NCBI RefSeq assembly: GCF_001458215.1
Contig: NZ_CYTW01000002.1
Coordinates: 434,001-498,000 of the forward strand
From: Shimia thalassica
GTDB taxonomy: Bacteria > Pseudomonadota > Alphaproteobacteria > Rhodobacterales > Rhodobacteraceae
Length of the DNA: 64,000 nt
Direction of reading: 5' to 3'
The notes beneath the pieces are model-generated. The model was given only the letters and a program-made list of their open reading frames with translations. It was not told the origin of the DNA and did no database searches. Within the stretch, counting starts at the first letter, position 1. Each line of letters starts with the position of its first letter. Shown one piece after another: positions 6,607 to 16,651 of this stretch. The position numbers were made by a program, and so were the translations under genes.

Positions 6607-7986
6607 CTAAAACGAGGAACGAATGCCGAAGGTTAAAGACAATTGTTCCGTTTCAAAGCGGCTGACATTTGAATCCGTGCGCAACGCGCGAAAGGTCATC
6701 GTGGGGGCGAAGCCGGCATAGTGCATTTTGTGGAACATCAGTTCGAATTCACCTGCAACCGAGGTATCCTTGCGTCCCCCCGGAACGGTGATGAAGCCGA
6801 CCCGATAATCCGGATAGTCGCTCACACCCACCTTGAACGATGTGCTTAATTTGACAGGACCAAAGGCACGTCCAAAACTGTACCCAATCTGGGCAACCGC
6901 CCCCTGTGAGGAAAACACGGGGTTGGCGTCGTCTGTTTGGCTGAGGCTGAGCGCCGTGGTCAGCCGGTTTCCGCTTTGAAGCGTGTGTGAATAGCTGGCC
7001 CCGAGGCTGGAATAGATATCGCGCGTGTCCGGTGCATTGTCCGGGCGGCGCCATTCATTGATCGCCTTGAACGACAGGCGGCGTCCCTTTGCAGGGCTCC
7101 AGCCCCAACCGCCTTCGAGACGAAACAGGTCATGCAGCGGATCGCCGCCATACCACGTTTTGCCAACCACGCCGCCCAAAGACCAGATGGCCCCTTTGGG
7201 TTTCAAACGAAAGGCATGGCGCACGCCGCCTTCCAGAACGGTGAAGGCGTAATCGGATCCGGAGGCCGCGGGTGCCAGATTTTTGGCATCGTCCGACAGG
7301 GTGACATGCCGTGTGAAGACCCGTCCGACAAGACGCGTTTCACTGCTTTCGTTTTCAGATATGCGATAGCTGACCGCAGCGTTCAGCATGGCTTCGATGC
7401 CGGACAGGGCCATTGCATCCCCGACGTTCACCCCGATCGCGGGCACGCCGTCAATGATCATGTTGCGGGACAAAGACCCGTTGTTGACGTTTGAGGACGG
7501 GCTGATTGATCCGGAAAGTTTGAACTTCAAAGGGTTTCTGGCGCGCACCTGCCTAAAGGATTGAACGGCGGCATTGCGCTGGACCTGACCGGGGGCGTTG
7601 GTGTGCGCACGTCGCAACCAGTATTGTGCTTGTGTAAAGCGTTCGTCTTTTACCGCAAGACGCGCGCTAAGATTGGCGGAGGAATAGCTTTGTAAATCGG
7701 TACGCGAAAACCGAAAGGCCGCCCGCGATGCCTTGCGCGCCGCCTTTGTGTCGCCTGCGCCCGTAAAGATCAGAGCAAGGGCATAATGCGCGGCAGGGTC
7801 TGTCGGGTCATGGTTCAAAAGGCCCAACGCCAATCGATAGGCCGCGTCCGCCTGATTTGTTTTCAAAGCGTAAGAGAGGGCCTGATGCGCTTGGGATTTG
7901 GTTAGCGTTGGACTGGGTGTCCCTTGTGCGCTGGCCACACCAGCGCACAGGCTAAAGACCAGTCCGAGAAGCCTACGGCGCAGCAT
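6607..7986 (-). CDS. Surface lipoprotein assembly modifier (Slam), TPR plus DUF560 beta-barrel
   Basis: About 459 residues: signal peptide (MLRRRLLGLVFSLCAGVASA), a periplasmic TPR-like helical domain at about residues 25-145, then a C-terminal outer-membrane beta-barrel with alternating hydrophobic strands ending in a terminal Phe. The barrel opens with FKLSGSISPSSNVNNGS, matching the DUF560 signature of P-x-SN-hydrophobic-N. Slam proteins move lipoproteins across the outer membrane to the cell surface. The start at 7986 lies inside the last codons of the upstream lipoprotein gene (14-bp overlap), which makes a dedicated pair. The in-frame extension upstream is the lipoprotein gene in another frame. 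Confidence 0.85.
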   Translation of the reverse strand: MLRRRLLGLVFSLCAGVASAQGTPSPTLTKSQAHQALSYALKTNQADAAYRLALGLLNHDPTDPAAHYALALIFTGAGDTKAARKASRAAFRFSRTDLQSYSSANLSARLAVKDERFTQAQYWLRRAHTNAPGQVQRNAAVQSFRQVRARNPLKFKLSGSISPSSNVNNGSLSRNMIIDGVPAIGVNVGDAMALSGIEAMLNAAVSYRISENESSETRLVGRVFTRHVTLSDDAKNLAPAASGSDYAFTVLEGGVRHAFRLKPKGAIWSLGGVVGKTWYGGDPLHDLFRLEGGWGWSPAKGRRLSFKAINEWRRPDNAPDTRDIYSSLGASYSHTLQSGNRLTTALSLSQTDDANPVFSSQGAVAQIGYSFGRAFGPVKLSTSFKVGVSDYPDYRVGFITVPGGRKDTSVAGEFELMFHKMHYAGFAPTMTFRALRTDSNVSRFETEQLSLTFGIRSSF

Positions 7987-8875
7987 TGTCGCAAATTGCG
8001 GCATCACCATCGAGACCACATTGCGTGAGAACGAAGAAACCATACTCGGTCTCGTCATCCAGATTATCTGTAAAGTCGGACATGCTTATGATGCCGGCAA
8101 CGGCCGCCGCGTCTGAGCCACCGAAGACACCACCATAGTCGCCTTTGTCACTTTCGATGATGCCATGTACTTCGACGTCCCCGAAAAAGCTGCCATCAGC
8201 GGCAATATCGGTCACGATCAAAGAGATATCTTCAAGTTCAAATGGCGTGGACAGCACGATTTGGCGATCATAGACGCCACCGTTGACGGCCATATCTGCA
8301 AAGTTCGCATTCAGAAATACCTGACCGCTCACCAAATAGGGTTCGCCCGGAAGAATGGACGAATCCACATTGGGGGCGTCCGCGGAATTGGGGCCGCCAT
8401 TCAAGATGCCGGCATAATCGCCCGCATAAGAAACCTGACCGGCTGCGGGGCCGGTGCCAATAGGCGGTGCATCGAAAGTGCCGTTGCGTTCATAGTAGGC
8501 GCCTTGAAGAACCCGGTTGAACTGGCCGCCGTCGCCGACGAATCCGGCCTGAACCGATCCATCCTGACTTTCCCCAACCATGGCGACAAAAAAGCGATCA
8601 AGGCTGTCTTCCTGAACGCTGTAGGCCTCGTAAGTGCCAATATCGCGTGCAGAATCCCGTGCGTACACAACGGTGACCGGCGTGGAATCCAGCGCATAAA
8701 TCTCGGCGGACAGGGTCTGGTCAGTTGCATTATACGAAACAGACTTCAGATTTCCGGCCAGTTCTTCGGGCACGGTAATTTCTGTGTCATCATCGGTTTC
8801 CTCCGCGAACGGATTCGAGCCACCACAGGCAGTCAGGCTGGCCATTGCGGCCATGCACACAAAAGAACGGATCAT
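7973..8875 (-). CDS. Surface lipoprotein, TbpB-like barrel, Slam substrate
   Basis: A 300-residue lipoprotein with a lipobox (SLTAC, lipidated Cys17) and a low-complexity acidic linker. A beta-rich body ends in a C-terminal barrel containing GDYGGVFGGSDAAAVAGII, the pattern of the transferrin-binding-protein-B barrel domain seen in Slam-exported lipoproteins. Two cysteines close to the C terminus could form a disulfide. It is first in a two-gene unit with the Slam gene. The ligand is unknown; nothing nearby (no TonB receptor) points to transferrin or haem. Confidence 0.8.
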   Translation of the reverse strand: MIRSFVCMAAMASLTACGGSNPFAEETDDDTEITVPEELAGNLKSVSYNATDQTLSAEIYALDSTPVTVVYARDSARDIGTYEAYSVQEDSLDRFFVAMVGESQDGSVQAGFVGDGGQFNRVLQGAYYERNGTFDAPPIGTGPAAGQVSYAGDYAGILNGGPNSADAPNVDSSILPGEPYLVSGQVFLNANFADMAVNGGVYDRQIVLSTPFELEDISLIVTDIAADGSFFGDVEVHGIIESDKGDYGGVFGGSDAAAVAGIISMSDFTDNLDDETEYGFFVLTQCGLDGDAAICDNAAP

Positions 8876-10095: not shown

Positions 10096-10383
10096 ATGTC
10101 CAAGTTTCTAAAGTTTGCCGCGATACTCTCTCTTGCTGCTGCGCCTGCCATGTCCCAGACATGGAGCAGCAACGCACCTAAGATCGGCCCGGTCAACCAG
10201 CCCGAAGGTGTGTTGTTCCAAGCCTATCCAGCCTCTGCCAACTATTGCCCCCAAGGGCTTCAGCCGGTCACTCTTGGTGGTGTGATCTGTTGTGGAACAC
10301 CCAATGCAACCTACAGCCAAGCGCCTGCGCGCAGCTATTCGCCGGCACCGTCGTGCCCTGCGGGCACCAAAGGATGTAGCTGA
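10096..10383 (+). CDS. Small secreted Cys-containing protein, unknown
   Basis: A 95-residue protein with a clean signal peptide (MSKFLKFAAILSLAAAPAMS, cleavage near residue 20). The mature part of about 75 residues is rich in Pro, Ser, Ala and Tyr and carries five cysteines, including an adjacent pair (GGVICCGTPN). A Ser/Ala/Pro-rich linker leads to a CPAGTKGCS tail, suggesting a disulfide-bonded periplasmic or secreted peptide. GGGAAGGA precedes the ATG. I do not recognise a family. It is transcribed alone and convergent with cspA, with a shared hairpin. Confidence 0.7.
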   Translation: MSKFLKFAAILSLAAAPAMSQTWSSNAPKIGPVNQPEGVLFQAYPASANYCPQGLQPVTLGGVICCGTPNATYSQAPARSYSPAPSCPAGTKGCS

Positions 10384-11563: not shown

Positions 11564-12079
11564 CTAGCTCAGGCGCAGCAGGCGATCCAAAGACAGGGGG
11601 CCTGCGCCCTTGAGCGCGATAATCGCAAACAGGAACACCCACAATGTGCGCTCGTCAATCAAAGTTTGGGTATTGTCGAACAGCACACCCAGCTTGACGC
11701 CGTGTCCGGTTACATCGACCAGAGTTTGCACCATAACAAATCCGATCATGGCCAGAGCGGAAAGTCGTGTGAGCAAACCGACGAGCAGCAACAAGGGCAG
11801 CACAAATTCGGCGACGGTTCCCAGAAAAATGACCAGACGTTGCAAGATGTTCATCTGTGACACGTCATAGAGCGCGGCTTCAGCAGCCTTTGGGAAGATC
11901 TGGCCAAACGCACCTGCAGAGGGCGTGAAGATGGACCCGTCAATCTTGAGCGTTGCCGAGTTCCAATAGTACATCAACAAGACCGCAACAAATACCAGCC
12001 TCGCCAAAGTCGGCACAATCCATTCGGCATTGGCCACTTTTGAAAAGGTTTGGTTGTGTAGTGATATCAGGGACTTCAT
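11564..12079 (-). CDS. DoxX-family membrane protein of the bufferin operon
   Basis: A 171-residue protein with four hydrophobic helices and the DoxX pattern (ARLVFVAVLLMYYWNSA near residue 27, then LLLLVGLLTRLSALAM). DoxX proteins often accompany DUF692/DUF2063 RiPP operons, where they may serve a redox or membrane role in maturation or copper handling. It is the last gene of the five-gene unit, 9 bp behind the DUF2063 gene. The role in this operon is inferred from context. Confidence 0.85.
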   Translation of the reverse strand: MKSLISLHNQTFSKVANAEWIVPTLARLVFVAVLLMYYWNSATLKIDGSIFTPSAGAFGQIFPKAAEAALYDVSQMNILQRLVIFLGTVAEFVLPLLLLVGLLTRLSALAMIGFVMVQTLVDVTGHGVKLGVLFDNTQTLIDERTLWVFLFAIIALKGAGPLSLDRLLRLS

Positions 12080-12088
12080 GGTGCTTCC

Positions 12089-12838
12089 TTAAAGTGTTGC
12101 TGTGGTGAGTGCTTGGGTCGAGAGCAACAATGTCAGGCATGCCCCAAGGTCGAAATTTTCGTCGCTGTTCGCCGCGGTTTCTGCGGCTTCGCCAAGTGTT
12201 TTGTGTGACCGAAGTGCCGAGACAAACACCGCACCACCCGGCGGCAGGAGATGAGGTTCGGGGTCAAAGTCGATGCGTGTCACCAGAACATCCTGCGACT
12301 CTGCCCGAGGTTTTGGAGCGCCATCAATCATGTTGAAAGCCCAGATGTCATAGATCGGCCAGCTCGAGCTCAGCACCTCGGAAGAGGGGGCAAATTCGAA
12401 CTTTATGTTTTCGATCTGGTCAGCAGGCATATGGGCCAGCACATCTGCTTCAAGCGGTGAGCTGTCCGCCGCATGATACGACCGACGCATGGCTTGCTCG
12501 ACCTCGGCGACATCCCCAAGATAGGGCAGGTGCGCCAAGGGTGCGAAGCTGCGCAGGAAGTCCGGAAAGGCAGCCCCGTAGTGCATCATCATCGGATTTT
12601 CCGGTGGGCTTTGACGCAAGAATAATCCCGAAATACCTTTTAAATTCTCTTCACCCAATAGTTTTGCAATCACGGGAAAGGCGGTTTCCAAAGCTTCTGA
12701 CAGCGAAACAGCGACGTTGTTGCGATAGACATCAAAGCGCTTTCCGGCAACCTGACCGCTACCGTCGGTTAAACCGGACGGCGCCGGAAGATCGCTGTTC
12801 AGAACTGCGTTGCGAAAGTCGGATTGTGTGACGGTCAT
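12089..12838 (-). CDS. DUF2063 protein, MNIO partner (MbnC/BufC-like)
   Basis: A 249-residue soluble protein. The N-terminal third (about residues 5-95, including FDVYRNNVAVSLSEALETAF and FPDFLRSF) matches the putative DNA-binding DUF2063 domain that pairs with DUF692 enzymes. In methanobactin and bufferin pathways such a partner recruits the precursor leader to the oxidase. The gene starts 4 bp inside the DUF692 gene (ATGA overlap), a sign of tight coupling and probably an equimolar complex. Despite the domain name it is not expected to act on DNA. Confidence 0.85.
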   Translation of the reverse strand: MTVTQSDFRNAVLNSDLPAPSGLTDGSGQVAGKRFDVYRNNVAVSLSEALETAFPVIAKLLGEENLKGISGLFLRQSPPENPMMMHYGAAFPDFLRSFAPLAHLPYLGDVAEVEQAMRRSYHAADSSPLEADVLAHMPADQIENIKFEFAPSSEVLSSSWPIYDIWAFNMIDGAPKPRAESQDVLVTRIDFDPEPHLLPPGGAVFVSALRSHKTLGEAAETAANSDENFDLGACLTLLLSTQALTTATL

Positions 12839-13692
12839 GCCGGCACCTGGCTCAGCGCATTCGCGGCGCGTGCGGCCTCGGACTCCAGTTCCGCCCAGTC
12901 GGGCACATCATTATCCCACTCGATCAGGATTGCGCGCGGTCCGGACAGGGCAAGCGTATGATCCAGCAAGGCCCAAACCGGATCAACAACAGGTTTTCCA
13001 TGGCTGTCGATCAACAGGGTCGCACCGTGTTCATCCTCGTCTTCATCATGCCCGCCAAGGTGGATTTCCCCAACTTTATCAAGCGGGTAGGCCGCGATGT
13101 AGTCTCGAGGATCGTATCCGAGGTTCGTCGCCGAGACAAAAACGTTGTTCACATCAAGCAACAGCCCGCACCCCGAGCGATTGGCAACCTCACGCAGGAA
13201 ATCCGGTTCGGACCATGTGCTTTCTTCAAAGGCCAGATAGCTGGACGGGTTTTCCAGCATCATCTGTCGCCCGATTGTGTTCTGCAATTGGTCGATATGA
13301 TCTGCAACGCGGGTCAATGTGTCTTTGGTATAGGGCAGGGGCAATAGGTCATTCAGAAAGGCGTTTTCATGCGATGACCATGCAAGATGCTCGGAAAATA
13401 CCGTGGGCTGAAGCCATTCACACAGGTGTTTCAGTCGCCCCAGGTGTTCAGGATCTAGAGGGCCTTCTCCGCCAATGGACAGGCCCACACCATGCACCGA
13501 AATCGGAAACTTTTCCGACAGCATCCGCATTTGAGCATGGGGCCGTCCGCCGGCCCCCATATAGTTTTCTGCGTGTACTTCGAACCACTCAACCGATCCC
13601 GCATCTTCCATAATATTTTGAAAATGTTGCGGTTTATAGCCGACACCGGGCGCATTCGGTAGTTCAGGAAAGCGGGGATGGGCGTCAAACAT
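12835..13692 (-). CDS. DUF692 multinuclear non-haem iron oxidative enzyme (BufB/MbnB-like)
   Basis: A 285-residue TIM-barrel enzyme of the DUF692/MNIO family, which installs oxazolone or thiooxazole-type changes on cysteines of RiPP precursors. Conserved iron-ligand segments are visible: FEVHAENYM, SVHGVGLSI, FSEHLAWS, MLENPSSY, LLLDVNNVFV, EIHLGGH and IEWDNDVP. The operon context (two Cys-rich precursors upstream, DUF2063 and DoxX downstream) points to a bufferin pathway, whose products bind copper. The chemistry is inferred from the family. It begins 30 bp after the second precursor gene. Confidence 0.9.
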   Translation of the reverse strand: MFDAHPRFPELPNAPGVGYKPQHFQNIMEDAGSVEWFEVHAENYMGAGGRPHAQMRMLSEKFPISVHGVGLSIGGEGPLDPEHLGRLKHLCEWLQPTVFSEHLAWSSHENAFLNDLLPLPYTKDTLTRVADHIDQLQNTIGRQMMLENPSSYLAFEESTWSEPDFLREVANRSGCGLLLDVNNVFVSATNLGYDPRDYIAAYPLDKVGEIHLGGHDEDEDEHGATLLIDSHGKPVVDPVWALLDHTLALSGPRAILIEWDNDVPDWAELESEAARAANALSQVPA

Positions 13693-13722
13693 GGGATCAG
13701 GCTTTCGTGGGTGTAGATCGTC

Positions 13723-14025
13723 TTAGGAGGGCAGGTCGCGTTCCAGCGGTTTCAAGGAAGGCGTGCGTTCTGACCCGTCTGCAGTTTCGGGCAAATCGAT
13801 TTCAAGACAGGTGCCTTTGTCGACAAGCGTCCAGGCGTTTCCTTGGTAATCAACGGTTGATGACCCTGCGCATGTGGTACCGGGACCAGCCGCGCAATGG
13901 TTTTCCCCAGCCATCGAAACGCCATAGCATTTTTCTTGTTGTGCAGCGTCGGCTTCAGAAGTTTGAGAGGCCACGGCAGCGAGCACAGCGCCCGCGATTG
14001 TGAAGGATTTAGCGGTGTTTGGCAT
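13723..14025 (-). CDS. Bufferin-type RiPP precursor (DUF2282), second copy
   Basis: A 100-residue exported precursor: signal-peptide-like leader (residues 1-28), then a core with four cysteines at 33, 44, 52 and 73 in the pattern [21 protein letters not shown] and DKGTCLE, and a charged tail. It matches the DUF2282 group of MNIO substrates. It is a clear paralogue of the gene just upstream, with identical cysteine spacing and a near-identical core. The ATG at 14025 has AGAGGAT before it. The longer frame through the intergenic region is not real. Confidence 0.85.
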
Positions 14026-14123
14026 GTGAGATCCTCTGATAGAATGGAATGTCTGAATGGCCCGGAATTGATCGGGTTTTCCCATCGTTATCACATCACA
14101 CAAAGAAGGTGTTTGGCAAATTC

Positions 14124-14149
14124 CGTCTCGATGGGGATCCACCGAGACG
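14124..14149 (-). other. Hairpin between the two precursor genes
   Basis: CGTCTCG (14124-14130) pairs perfectly with CGAGACG (14143-14149) in the 137-bp spacer between precursor genes. No T-run follows on the minus strand. It may be a processing or stabilising stem that gives the first precursor more transcript than downstream genes. Confidence 0.45.
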
Positions 14150-14162
14150 AAACTGGGATCGC

Positions 14163-14468
14163 TTATGCGGGCAGGTCGCGCTCTTGAGCTTCCAGGGAAC
14201 CTTTGCGCATCGAGCCGTCTGCCTGTGCGGGCAGTTCGATGTCCATGCATGTGCCTTTGTCTACGAGCGACCATGCGTTGCCTTGATAATCGATGGTCGA
14301 GGTACCTGCACATGTTGTGCCCGGGCCGGCGGCGCAGTCATTCTTGCCTGCCATGGATACGCCGTAGCATTTTTCTTTTTCAGCGGCGTTTGCAGCAGTG
14401 TGAGTGGTGGCTGTCAGGGCTGCTGCTACTGCGCTGGCTACGGCGAGAGTTTTTACGGTCTTCGACAT
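14163..14468 (-). CDS. Bufferin-type RiPP precursor (DUF2282), first copy
   Basis: A 101-residue precursor with a signal peptide ([20 protein letters not shown]) and a four-cysteine core, Cys34, Cys45, Cys53 and Cys74, in [20 protein letters not shown] and DKGTCMD. This is the DUF2282 pattern of bufferins, periplasmic copper-sequestering RiPPs whose cysteines are modified by the MNIO enzyme before export. AAGGGAAG precedes the ATG. It leads the operon of five genes down to doxX. No known copper- or stress-responsive operator could be recognised upstream. Confidence 0.88.
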
Positions 14469-14640
14469 GGTGTTTCTTCCCTTTGGTCGGTTTTGTTCAG
14501 GCTACCCTTTGTGGGTGGCATGGATAAAACTTAAGCCGTTCGGGACATAACGATCCAATCACGGGGGCGTGTATCACGGGCCCGTCAGGCGCCGTGACGT
14601 TTTCGTGAAGATTCCAGCACGGGAACCCCTTGTTTGTTTC

Positions 14641-14681
14641 GAAAATGAAACGGGCGCGCCCGGTTTCCCGTGGCGCGCCCG
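14641..14681 (-). terminator. Rho-independent terminator of thrS
   Basis: CGGGCGCGCC (14651-14660) pairs with GGCGCGCCCG (14672-14681), a 10-bp GC stem. On the minus strand it runs into TTTCATTTTC. It separates thrS from the bufferin operon. Confidence 0.8.
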
Positions 14682-14701
14682 CTCAATTGTTGCAAAGTTT
14701 G

Positions 14702-16651
14702 TTACGCAAGGTCAGGTGCAAGCGCTTCTTGTGACAAGATGCTCACGATTTCGTCCAAACTCTGGACTTTGCTTTGTTTTTGACCAAGTCGACGGGTCGA
14801 AACGGTGCGTTCCTCGATTTCCTTCTTACCAATGGCAAGAATAACGGGAACTTTGCCAACCGAATGTTCGCGGACCTTATAGTTGATCTTTTCATTGCGA
14901 ATATCGGCTTCGGCGCGCACGCCGTTGGCTTTCAACGTCGAAACGATTTCATGCACATAGTCATCTGCCTCTGAAACGATCGAGGCCACGACAACCTGAC
15001 GCGGCGCGATCCAGAAGGGCAGCTTGCCTGCGTGCTCTTCAATCAGGATACCAATGAAACGTTCAAAAGACCCCAGCGTGGCACGGTGCAACATCACCGG
15101 ACGATGCTTTGCCCCATCTTCGGCAATGTATGTGGCGTCGAGACGTTCGGGCAGAACAAAGTCCACCTGAAGCGTGCCACATTGCCAGTCGCGCCCGATG
15201 GCATCGGTCAGAACGAATTCCAGCTTCGGACCATAAAAGGCGCCTTCGCCGGGGTTTAGTACAAAGTCACACCCTGCCGCGATGGTTGCCGCCTTGAGGG
15301 CGGCTTCGGATTTGTCCCAGACTTCATCAGAACCGGAGCGTTTCTCGGGGCGGTCGGAAAACTTGACCGAGAAGTTTTCAAAGCCGAGGTCTTTGTAGAT
15401 CTTCGAGAGGAAGTCGATGAACTTTTGAGTCTCTTCTTCGATCTGCGCTTCAGTACAGAAAATATGCGCGTCATCCTGTGTGAAGCCACGCACACGCATA
15501 ATACCATGCAGCGCGCCCGAGGGCTCATACCGGTTGCACGATCCAAATTCGGCCATGCGCAGGGGCAGGTCGCGATAGGATTTGAGACCTTGATTGTAGA
15601 CCTGCACGTGACACGGACAGTTCATGGGCTTCAGGGCGTTCACGGCTTTTTCGCGTGCGTGCTCTTCGTCAACTTCGACGATGAACATGTTTTCCTGATA
15701 TTTGTCCCAGTGCCCCGAGGCTTCCCACAGGCGACGATCCACAACCTGAGGCGTGTTGACCTCGACATAGCCACCTTCTGTCTGACGGCGGCGCATGTAG
15801 TCCTGAAGTTGCGTGTAGATGGTCCAGCCGTTTGGATGCCAGAAAATCTGACCGGGTGCTTCTTCCTGCATGTGGAACAGGTTCATTTCCCGTCCCAGCT
15901 TGCGGTGGTCGCGTTTTGCGGCCTCTTCCAGCATATGAAGGTGCTTTTTGAGGTCTTCTTTGTTCTTGAAGGCCACACCATAGATACGTTGAAGCATCGC
16001 GCGATCACTGTCGCCACGCCAATAGGCACCGGCCACGCTCATCAGTTTGAAACCGTCAGCCGGAATTTGACCGGTGTGTTGCAAGTGCGGACCACGGCAC
16101 AAATCCTGCCAGTGACCGTGCCAATACATGCGCAGCGGCTCGTCACCGGGGATCGAGTCGATCAGTTCGACCTTATAAGGTTCGTTGTTCGCTTTATAGA
16201 ATGCGACCGCGCGATCACGATCCCACACTTCGGTGGTGACAGGGTCGCGGCGGTTGATGATCTCTTTCATCTTCTTTTCGATCTCACCGAGATCTTCAGG
16301 AGTGAAAGGGTCCTGCCGGTCAAAGTCATAGTACCAGCCGTTGTCGATCACAGGGCCGATGGTCACTTTGACATCAGGCCACAGCTCTTGCACGGCGCGC
16401 GCCATGATGTGCGCACAGTCGTGACGGATCAACTCGAGCGCTTCGGCGTCATTGTCCTTGAGTGTGTTGATCGCGATTTGTGAATCACTGTCGATTGGCC
16501 ACTGCAAATCCCAGTGTTGACGGTCTACGGTCGCTGAGATCGCTTTTTTGCCAAGCGAGTTGGAAATGGATGCGGCGACTTCGGCAGGGGTGACACCTGC
16601 AGCGTAAGAACGCGCGTTACCATCAGGAAAAGTAAGAGAAATATCGGCCAT
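14702..16651 (-). CDS. thrS: Threonyl-tRNA synthetase
   Basis: A 649-residue class II synthetase of normal length. In order: N-terminal TGS domain ([15 protein letters not shown]), editing domain with the HxxxH-type motif [11 protein letters not shown], catalytic core with the zinc-binding segment [12 protein letters not shown] and motif 2 around [15 protein letters not shown], and the C-terminal anticodon-binding domain ([16 protein letters not shown]). The start at 16651 has GAGGAGCTTGAGG upstream; the frame could run 32 codons further but that sequence has no family character. No T-box is expected in this group and none is seen. Confidence 0.97.

Follow-up and report, generated by a model that had tools for sequence, protein, structure and literature searches.

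Two types of precursor around a conserved hairpin in a Buf1-type bufferin operon of Shimia thalassica

Why should an operon that encodes a single maturase carry two precursors? The question is raised by a 64,000-nucleotide (nt) stretch of the 4.35 Mb genome of Shimia thalassica (C2:434001-498000; hereafter the window), in which a five-gene set on the minus strand (14468-11564) consists of two DUF2282 precursor genes, bufA1 and bufA2, the MNIO gene bufB, the partner gene bufC, and doxX. In characterised bufferins the MNIO and its partner oxidise two central cysteines, after which the peptide is exported and copper is held in the periplasm (PMC12452194, PMC12668002). Operons with precursors in tandem have been published already, as have genomes that combine several precursors with one MNIO; whether a single MNIO/partner pair modifies more than one precursor, or the extra ones serve another purpose, was left undecided in that account (PMC12452194). 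What is new here is that the second precursor (A2) is, as judged from sequence, a separate conserved type, encoded between a hairpin and the enzyme genes and with no operator of its own.

The assignment of the locus to the Buf1 (DUF2282) bufferins is supported by several lines of comparison. All five Pfam scores exceed their curated cut-offs (Table 1), that of DoxX barely; the gene order bufA-bufB-bufC with doxX is that of Buf1 operons; both precursors carry four conserved cysteines (C34/45/53/74 in A1 and C33/44/52/73 in A2); and BufB scores well above the cut-off of the bufferin-type NCBIfam model MNIO_BufB. The preliminary description had read these genes as one bufferin-type minus-strand operon and had given the same cysteine spacing, and it was right on each point, the predicted resemblance of BufC to the MNIO partners TglI and NGO1945 adding to the case. 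Both precursor N-termini are basic and continue into a hydrophobic stretch with AxA-like end sites, by eye putative Sec signal peptides; the mechanical open reading frame of bufA2 begins too far upstream, at 14313, the gene itself starting at 14025. Other assignments scored below their thresholds: the Buf2 model NF050166 (Cu_RiPP_BufA2) gave 19.6 of 60 bits for A1 and no match for A2, the methanobactin model TIGR04159 (MbnB) gave 57.7 of 325 bits, and for the EGKCG captophorins and oxazolins the motif is in neither precursor and PRK05409 (HvfB) gave 243.6 of 360 bits. By homology to characterised systems (PMC12452194, PMC12668002), the operon probably makes small copper-binding peptides.

Table 1. 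Positions of the buf genes and associated elements, numbered within the window unless a locus is named
Feature	Position	Strand	Evidence or remark
bufA1, first DUF2282 precursor, 101 aa	14163..14468	-	PF10048 84.2 bits (cut-off 22.4)
Hairpin directly after bufA1	14116..14162	-	local -24.3 kcal/mol; first 60 nt -25.1, z -5.2
bufA2, second DUF2282 precursor, distinct type A2, 100 aa	13723..14025	-	PF10048 78.7 bits (cut-off 22.4); clade 100/99
bufB, MNIO bufferin maturase (predicted)	12835..13692	-	PF05114 (MbnB_TglH_ChrH) 348.7 bits (cut-off 25); NF050167 (MNIO_BufB) 372.8 (cut-off 310)
bufC, DUF2063 partner, RRE-like C-terminal part	12089..12838	-	PF09836 81.0 bits (cut-off 27.2); model matches 8hci_A, 8hi7_A, 3dee
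doxX, DoxX-family membrane protein	11564..12079	-	PF07681 25.0 bits (cut-off 23.6)
Operator-like block, 44 nt, half-sites TnAC, TnAC, GTnA, GTnA	14555..14598	-	matrix match, upstream of bufA1
Putative promoter TTGGAT - 17 nt - CTTAAG, overlaps operator	14530..14558	-	TTGG and downstream TA..T conserved in alignment; promoter by eye
Possible extended -10 (TGTGATAAC), internal promoter before bufA2	14087..14095	-	6/8 matches; weak for the window alone
Stand-alone DUF2282 genes, His-Cys type	L135:4073-4381, L137:3607-3909	-	two Shimia-like genomes also holding A1 and A2; no operator, no MNIO nearby

The preliminary description took the two precursors to be near-identical, but A1 and A2 share only 65% identity. 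The stretch from first to last cysteine is identical at 36 of 41 residues (counted on the alignment), and most differences sit in the signal peptide and the tail. The 16 second precursors that lie in operons cluster with two stand-alone copies as one clade (100/99) in a 104-row tree; three regex artefacts in that tree (L037_1of2, L055_1of2 and L110_2of2, minus strand) were removed from later ones, and in a smaller tree of 52 rows the A2 clade stands at 100/98 and is present in all of 200 bootstrap trees. Fixed differences separate the two types. Position 44, immediately before the first central cysteine, is Asp in 15 and Glu in 1 of the A1 sequences and Gly in 14, Asp in 1 and His in 1 of the A2 sequences, the histidine being that of the window; single-copy precursors have Asp there in 58 of 62. 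Position 75 is Leu in 16/16 A2, and position 90, which is Gly in 16/16 A1 and in 61/62 single-copy precursors, is Pro in 16/16 A2. Across 127 distinct cores the residue before the first central cysteine is Asp in 105, Gly in 17, His in 3, Glu in 1 and Ser in 1; the three with histidine comprise both stand-alone copies and A2 of the window. All 16 A2 sequences keep the four cysteines and likewise most of the core, which is under purifying selection (median core dN/dS, the ratio of nonsynonymous to synonymous rates, 0.069 for A2 and 0.040 for A1; dS was often saturated, leaving 64 and 99 of 120 pairs usable). A2 thus looks like a separate, conserved precursor type and not a spare copy of A1.

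A strong hairpin of varying sequence lies downstream of the first or only precursor in all 79 near-relative loci counted, L063 and L139 having been left out of the count. The first 60 nt past the precursor stop reach -17.5 or lower in 79/79 (median -25.2; median z -3.25), and the hairpin energy beats all 60 shuffles in 53 of these loci. After A2 none of 16 beats its shuffles (median z +1.09), with the caveat that the 60 nt past A2 extend into bufB, to which bufA2 is tightly linked (gaps 10-42 nt). The same test at the other gene ends gave 1/79 after bufB, 0/79 after bufC and 24/79 after doxX. A possible parallel is the puf operon of Rhodobacter, where intergenic RNA structure is reported to set unequal product amounts from one message, cleavage sites and stabilising structures yielding segments with different lifetimes (PMC6238624); its genes encode photosynthesis proteins unrelated to those of the buf operon, and the likeness is one that we infer. 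The hairpin suggests how the ratio of precursor to enzyme is set.

The control region upstream of bufA1 tells a similar story of conservation at the first precursor. The operator block ends in TTGG, by eye a possible -35. A matrix built from the very sites that it is scored on (accepted at 19.5-58.7) finds the operator upstream of the first precursor in 78/81 near-relative cases, missing L139, L091 and L080; in 80 control stretches, none longer than 4 kb, it scored 1.7 at best. It found no operator before any of the 16 A2 genes, nor any around the stand-alone DUF2282 copies. Outside the family it matched 0/25 sampled loci (best -0.8), and three same-family loci of that sample matched. In its own genome the operator core has one exact match and four other hits that carry two mismatches (control: two hits), and a wider regulon under the operator was rejected on this count.

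The closest characterised relative by gene content is regulated otherwise. The Buf1 operon CC3254-CC3257 of Caulobacter vibrioides (DUF2282, DUF692, DUF2063, DoxX) has the same families in the same order (PMC3511200, PMC12452194), with one precursor per operon and sigma-F/NrsF control from the promoter GTAACC-N16-CGAA (PMC3511200). The window, in contrast, has two precursors and an operator; its genome yielded 0 NrsF matches, where the Caulobacter control was positive, and its 46 sigma-F-like sites do not exceed chance (45.67 expected), with none at 14469-14800. Regulation therefore probably differs from the Caulobacter sigma-F system (PMC3511200, PMC8224329), the operator pointing to a regulator other than sigma-F, and we infer that the operator responds to copper. 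An additional internal promoter before bufA2 may be indicated by the extended -10 matches in the 16 A1-A2 spacers, whose sum of 96 compares with 80.3 +- 2.15, and at most 86, in 300 shuffles, the spacers being related and 3/16 having their best match elsewhere. No regulator of the operator was found; UzcR may be a candidate, the passages on it offering no site for comparison.

Codon use agrees with higher expression of A1. The median share of C-ending codons among those ending in a pyrimidine (NNY) is 0.82 in A1, 0.62 in A2 and 0.56 in bufB, and it is higher in A1 than in A2 in 14/16 pairs (p 0.0027).

Taken together, these observations may be explained by a Buf1 operon in which A1, under regulation, supplies the bulk of the buffer and A2 is a bufferin of changed chemistry, made in smaller amounts and served by the same enzyme pair, an account that we favour and to which we would give about an even chance. 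An operator-controlled promoter would produce one message, and the hairpin past bufA1 would protect or trim the upstream segment so that A1 is made in large excess over the enzymes; the amount of A2, whose gene follows the hairpin and lies close to bufB, would come nearer to theirs. BufB and BufC would convert the two central cysteines of both precursors to thiooxazoles in the cytoplasm, Sec would export the peptides, a Cys1-Cys4 disulphide would close, and the product would retain excess copper in the periplasm. The A2 residue beside the first thiooxazole has no carboxylate (Gly; His here), and because of that loss A2 probably binds metal differently, in strength or preference. A bolder form of this account makes A2 a second functional bufferin class, of low abundance and separately expressed. 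Lacking Asp next to the first thiooxazole, it would differ in chemistry there and would have a task other than A1's, such as passing copper to a recipient, binding a different metal or priming BufBC; this form is unlikely.

Several results weigh against the favoured account. The hairpin signal is weaker in wider samples, where z falls below -2 in 13/22 loci of a phylum sample and 15/25 of a family sample, counts that take only loci with the MNIO motif downstream (three phylum-sample loci belong to the window's family; L020, L032 and L175 gave no core, and L010, L011, L030 and L168 were apparently mis-read). Most of the hairpins have no T run and therefore do not point to termination. Only 18 of 30 same-family loci in a wider sample have the operator. 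A tree with the window's two precursors as sisters remains acceptable under the approximately unbiased (AU) test (p 0.185; 100 columns, underpowered), and because the test is weak with so few columns the distinctness of A2 is argued partly from shared position and residues. Seven of the 16 A2 sequences belong to a single group of close kin. Within the window, A1 and A2 differ little in codon use (0.78 vs 0.74), and G+C at third positions (GC3) does not differ significantly across the 16 pairs (p 0.10). Finally, A2 is probably dispensable, as it appears to have been lost about five times on the tree of BufB and BufC. A recent duplication of A1 within its own genome was also considered and is disfavoured by the trees and by position, the AU test being of low power. 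Fourfold sites do not decide on a recent duplication: 26/41 differ between the window's A1 and A2, and when its A1 is compared with that of six other loci, 25 to 36 of 52 to 61 differ.

Of the other explanations, one gives A2 another task, as a DUF2282 protein that is left unmodified and, for example, competes with, scaffolds or regulates BufBC, or acts through free thiols in the periplasm. Unmodified precursors are raised as a possibility in PMC12452194, which also presents preliminary evidence that the signal peptide lies within the recognition sequence, and A2 signal peptides do diverge (dN 0.446 vs 0.139 in A1). However, the four cysteines and most of the core are kept throughout and bufA2 stays close to bufB, and we regard this explanation as unlikely. 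Dosage, with the second gene giving more of the same copper-binding peptide, would be compatible with the high identity between the outer cysteines, with the same enzyme serving both precursors and with the recent duplication that the AU test leaves possible. It is nonetheless disfavoured, because A2 forms a conserved type of its own, lies past the hairpin towards bufB and lacks an operator, and the fixed differences, the supported clade and the weaker codon bias of A2 tell against it as well; we consider it quite unlikely. Where the preliminary description offered dosage or specialisation, then, the evidence leans against the former, and specialisation of function is a possibility. That A2 is a paralogue in decay, with no role today, is improbable, for its repeated losses and its branches, longer than those of A1 in the 104-row tree, are countered by the low dN/dS of its core and its intact cysteines. 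Equally improbable is an operon serving a metal or stress other than copper, which the responses of related operons to gold and copper (PMC5413113) and to chromate and cadmium (PMC3511200) and a control region unlike the Caulobacter sigma-F promoter would allow, but against which stands the copper chelation by thiooxazoles described as common to the characterised members (PMC12452194, PMC12668002).

The Shimia lineage provides a natural test of these readings. DUF2282 genes occur in 25/25 genomes of the genus, two or three copies in 14/25, with one MNIO in each multi-precursor genome tested, and several close relatives on the BufB and BufC tree lack A2. In the family sample DUF2282 is present in 140/198 genomes, three of them with two copies (G000, G007 and G100). 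The window's own genome has two DUF2282 genes and one MNIO, and 15/15 other multi-precursor genomes of the two samples have one MNIO each. Among the named loci, which are the best 80 of 442 by MNIO similarity, 15 have the window's arrangement (11 Shimia, 3 Rhodobacteraceae and 1 Thiosulfatihalobacter marinus). The extra copy in L063 is a different one, located about 500 nt upstream and equipped with a weaker operator of its own and a weaker hairpin (-13.5), L139 (G007) is an independent precursor duplication in the 104-row tree, and L101 has no precursor on its contig. In L052 (G100:C45:4536-5327) the MNIO match has one in-frame TAA, so that the enzyme is possibly truncated or the assembly wrong.

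On the tree of BufB and BufC (51 rows) six changes are needed to explain where A2 is present, the simplest history being a single gain and five losses, although the count cannot separate gain from loss. Relics of A2 were sought in eight single-precursor spacers; blastn gave no match there, and tblastn matched only two stretches, 7-8 residues long (E 0.25 and 0.9). L051 and L054 have 280-nt precursor-MNIO spacers without A2 but with TGnCATACT (by eye), like the A1-A2 spacer of their kin, and these are perhaps a relic of A2 loss. The window's A2 groups with the two stand-alone copies in three trees (98/82, 96/94 and 95/87), a hint that it was swapped for the stand-alone type; holding it with the operon copies of its nearest kin is not rejected (p 0.155 and 0.215). 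The A2 slot may thus be exchangeable, the nearest kin of the window's His-type A2 being stand-alone copies from two further Shimia-like genomes. A third DUF2282 gene is present on a separate contig in G201 and G221, and the 7.5-8 kb examined around it contain no MNIO. In the phylum sample, G229 and G306 each have two DUF2282 genes at distant places, and in a plasmid collection 244 records match the first precursor (60 Escherichia, 17 Klebsiella), 106/244 being predicted conjugative.

Tandem-precursor operons with more than one precursor before one MNIO, as here, have been described, and the main-text sections on them describe no A2 type, hairpin or operator (PMC12452194). A literature search returned no title or abstract on any of the three, which is not proof of absence. 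MNIO/DUF2063 clusters have been mentioned for Ruegeria (PMC12538549). The captophorins (fontiphorin, oxazolin and gonophorin) likewise pair an MNIO with a DUF2063/RRE partner, theirs installing 5-thiooxazole on cysteine (PMC12668002), but they carry EGKCG repeats and not the DUF2282 core, and the window's MNIO falls below the HvfB cut-off, as noted above.

The enzymes themselves offer some further comparisons. For BufC, sequence search found no relative in the PDB, and the NCBIfam HvfC score is only 34.8 of 142 bits; its AlphaFold model (mean predicted local distance difference test score, pLDDT, 93.5) is predicted by structure search to resemble the MNIO partners TglI (E 1.7e-6) and NGO1945 (E 2.7e-4) and to match 3dee over its whole length (template modelling score, TM, 0.56/0.68), whereas the RRE protein TbiB1 matches only at E 1.3. 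The BufC reference set comprised 25/26 sequences (L091 left out) and the window's BufC. BufB aligns with 3bww, TglH and MbnB and has several His, Asp and Glu positions in common with them, which are putative metal ligands.

Elsewhere in the window, the 5' neighbour of the buf genes is an open reading frame resembling threonyl-tRNA synthetase (by eye). A small secreted-looking, cysteine-containing protein of 95 aa with an ICCG motif and no Pfam or NCBIfam match is encoded at 10096-10383 (+). The pair at 6607-8058 (-) and 7973-8875 (-) resembles a Slam-type outer-membrane protein (TPR and barrel, by eye) and a surface lipoprotein, the lipoprotein candidate scoring 17.5 bits against NCBIfam slam_lipo (cut-off 80, E 0.0039).

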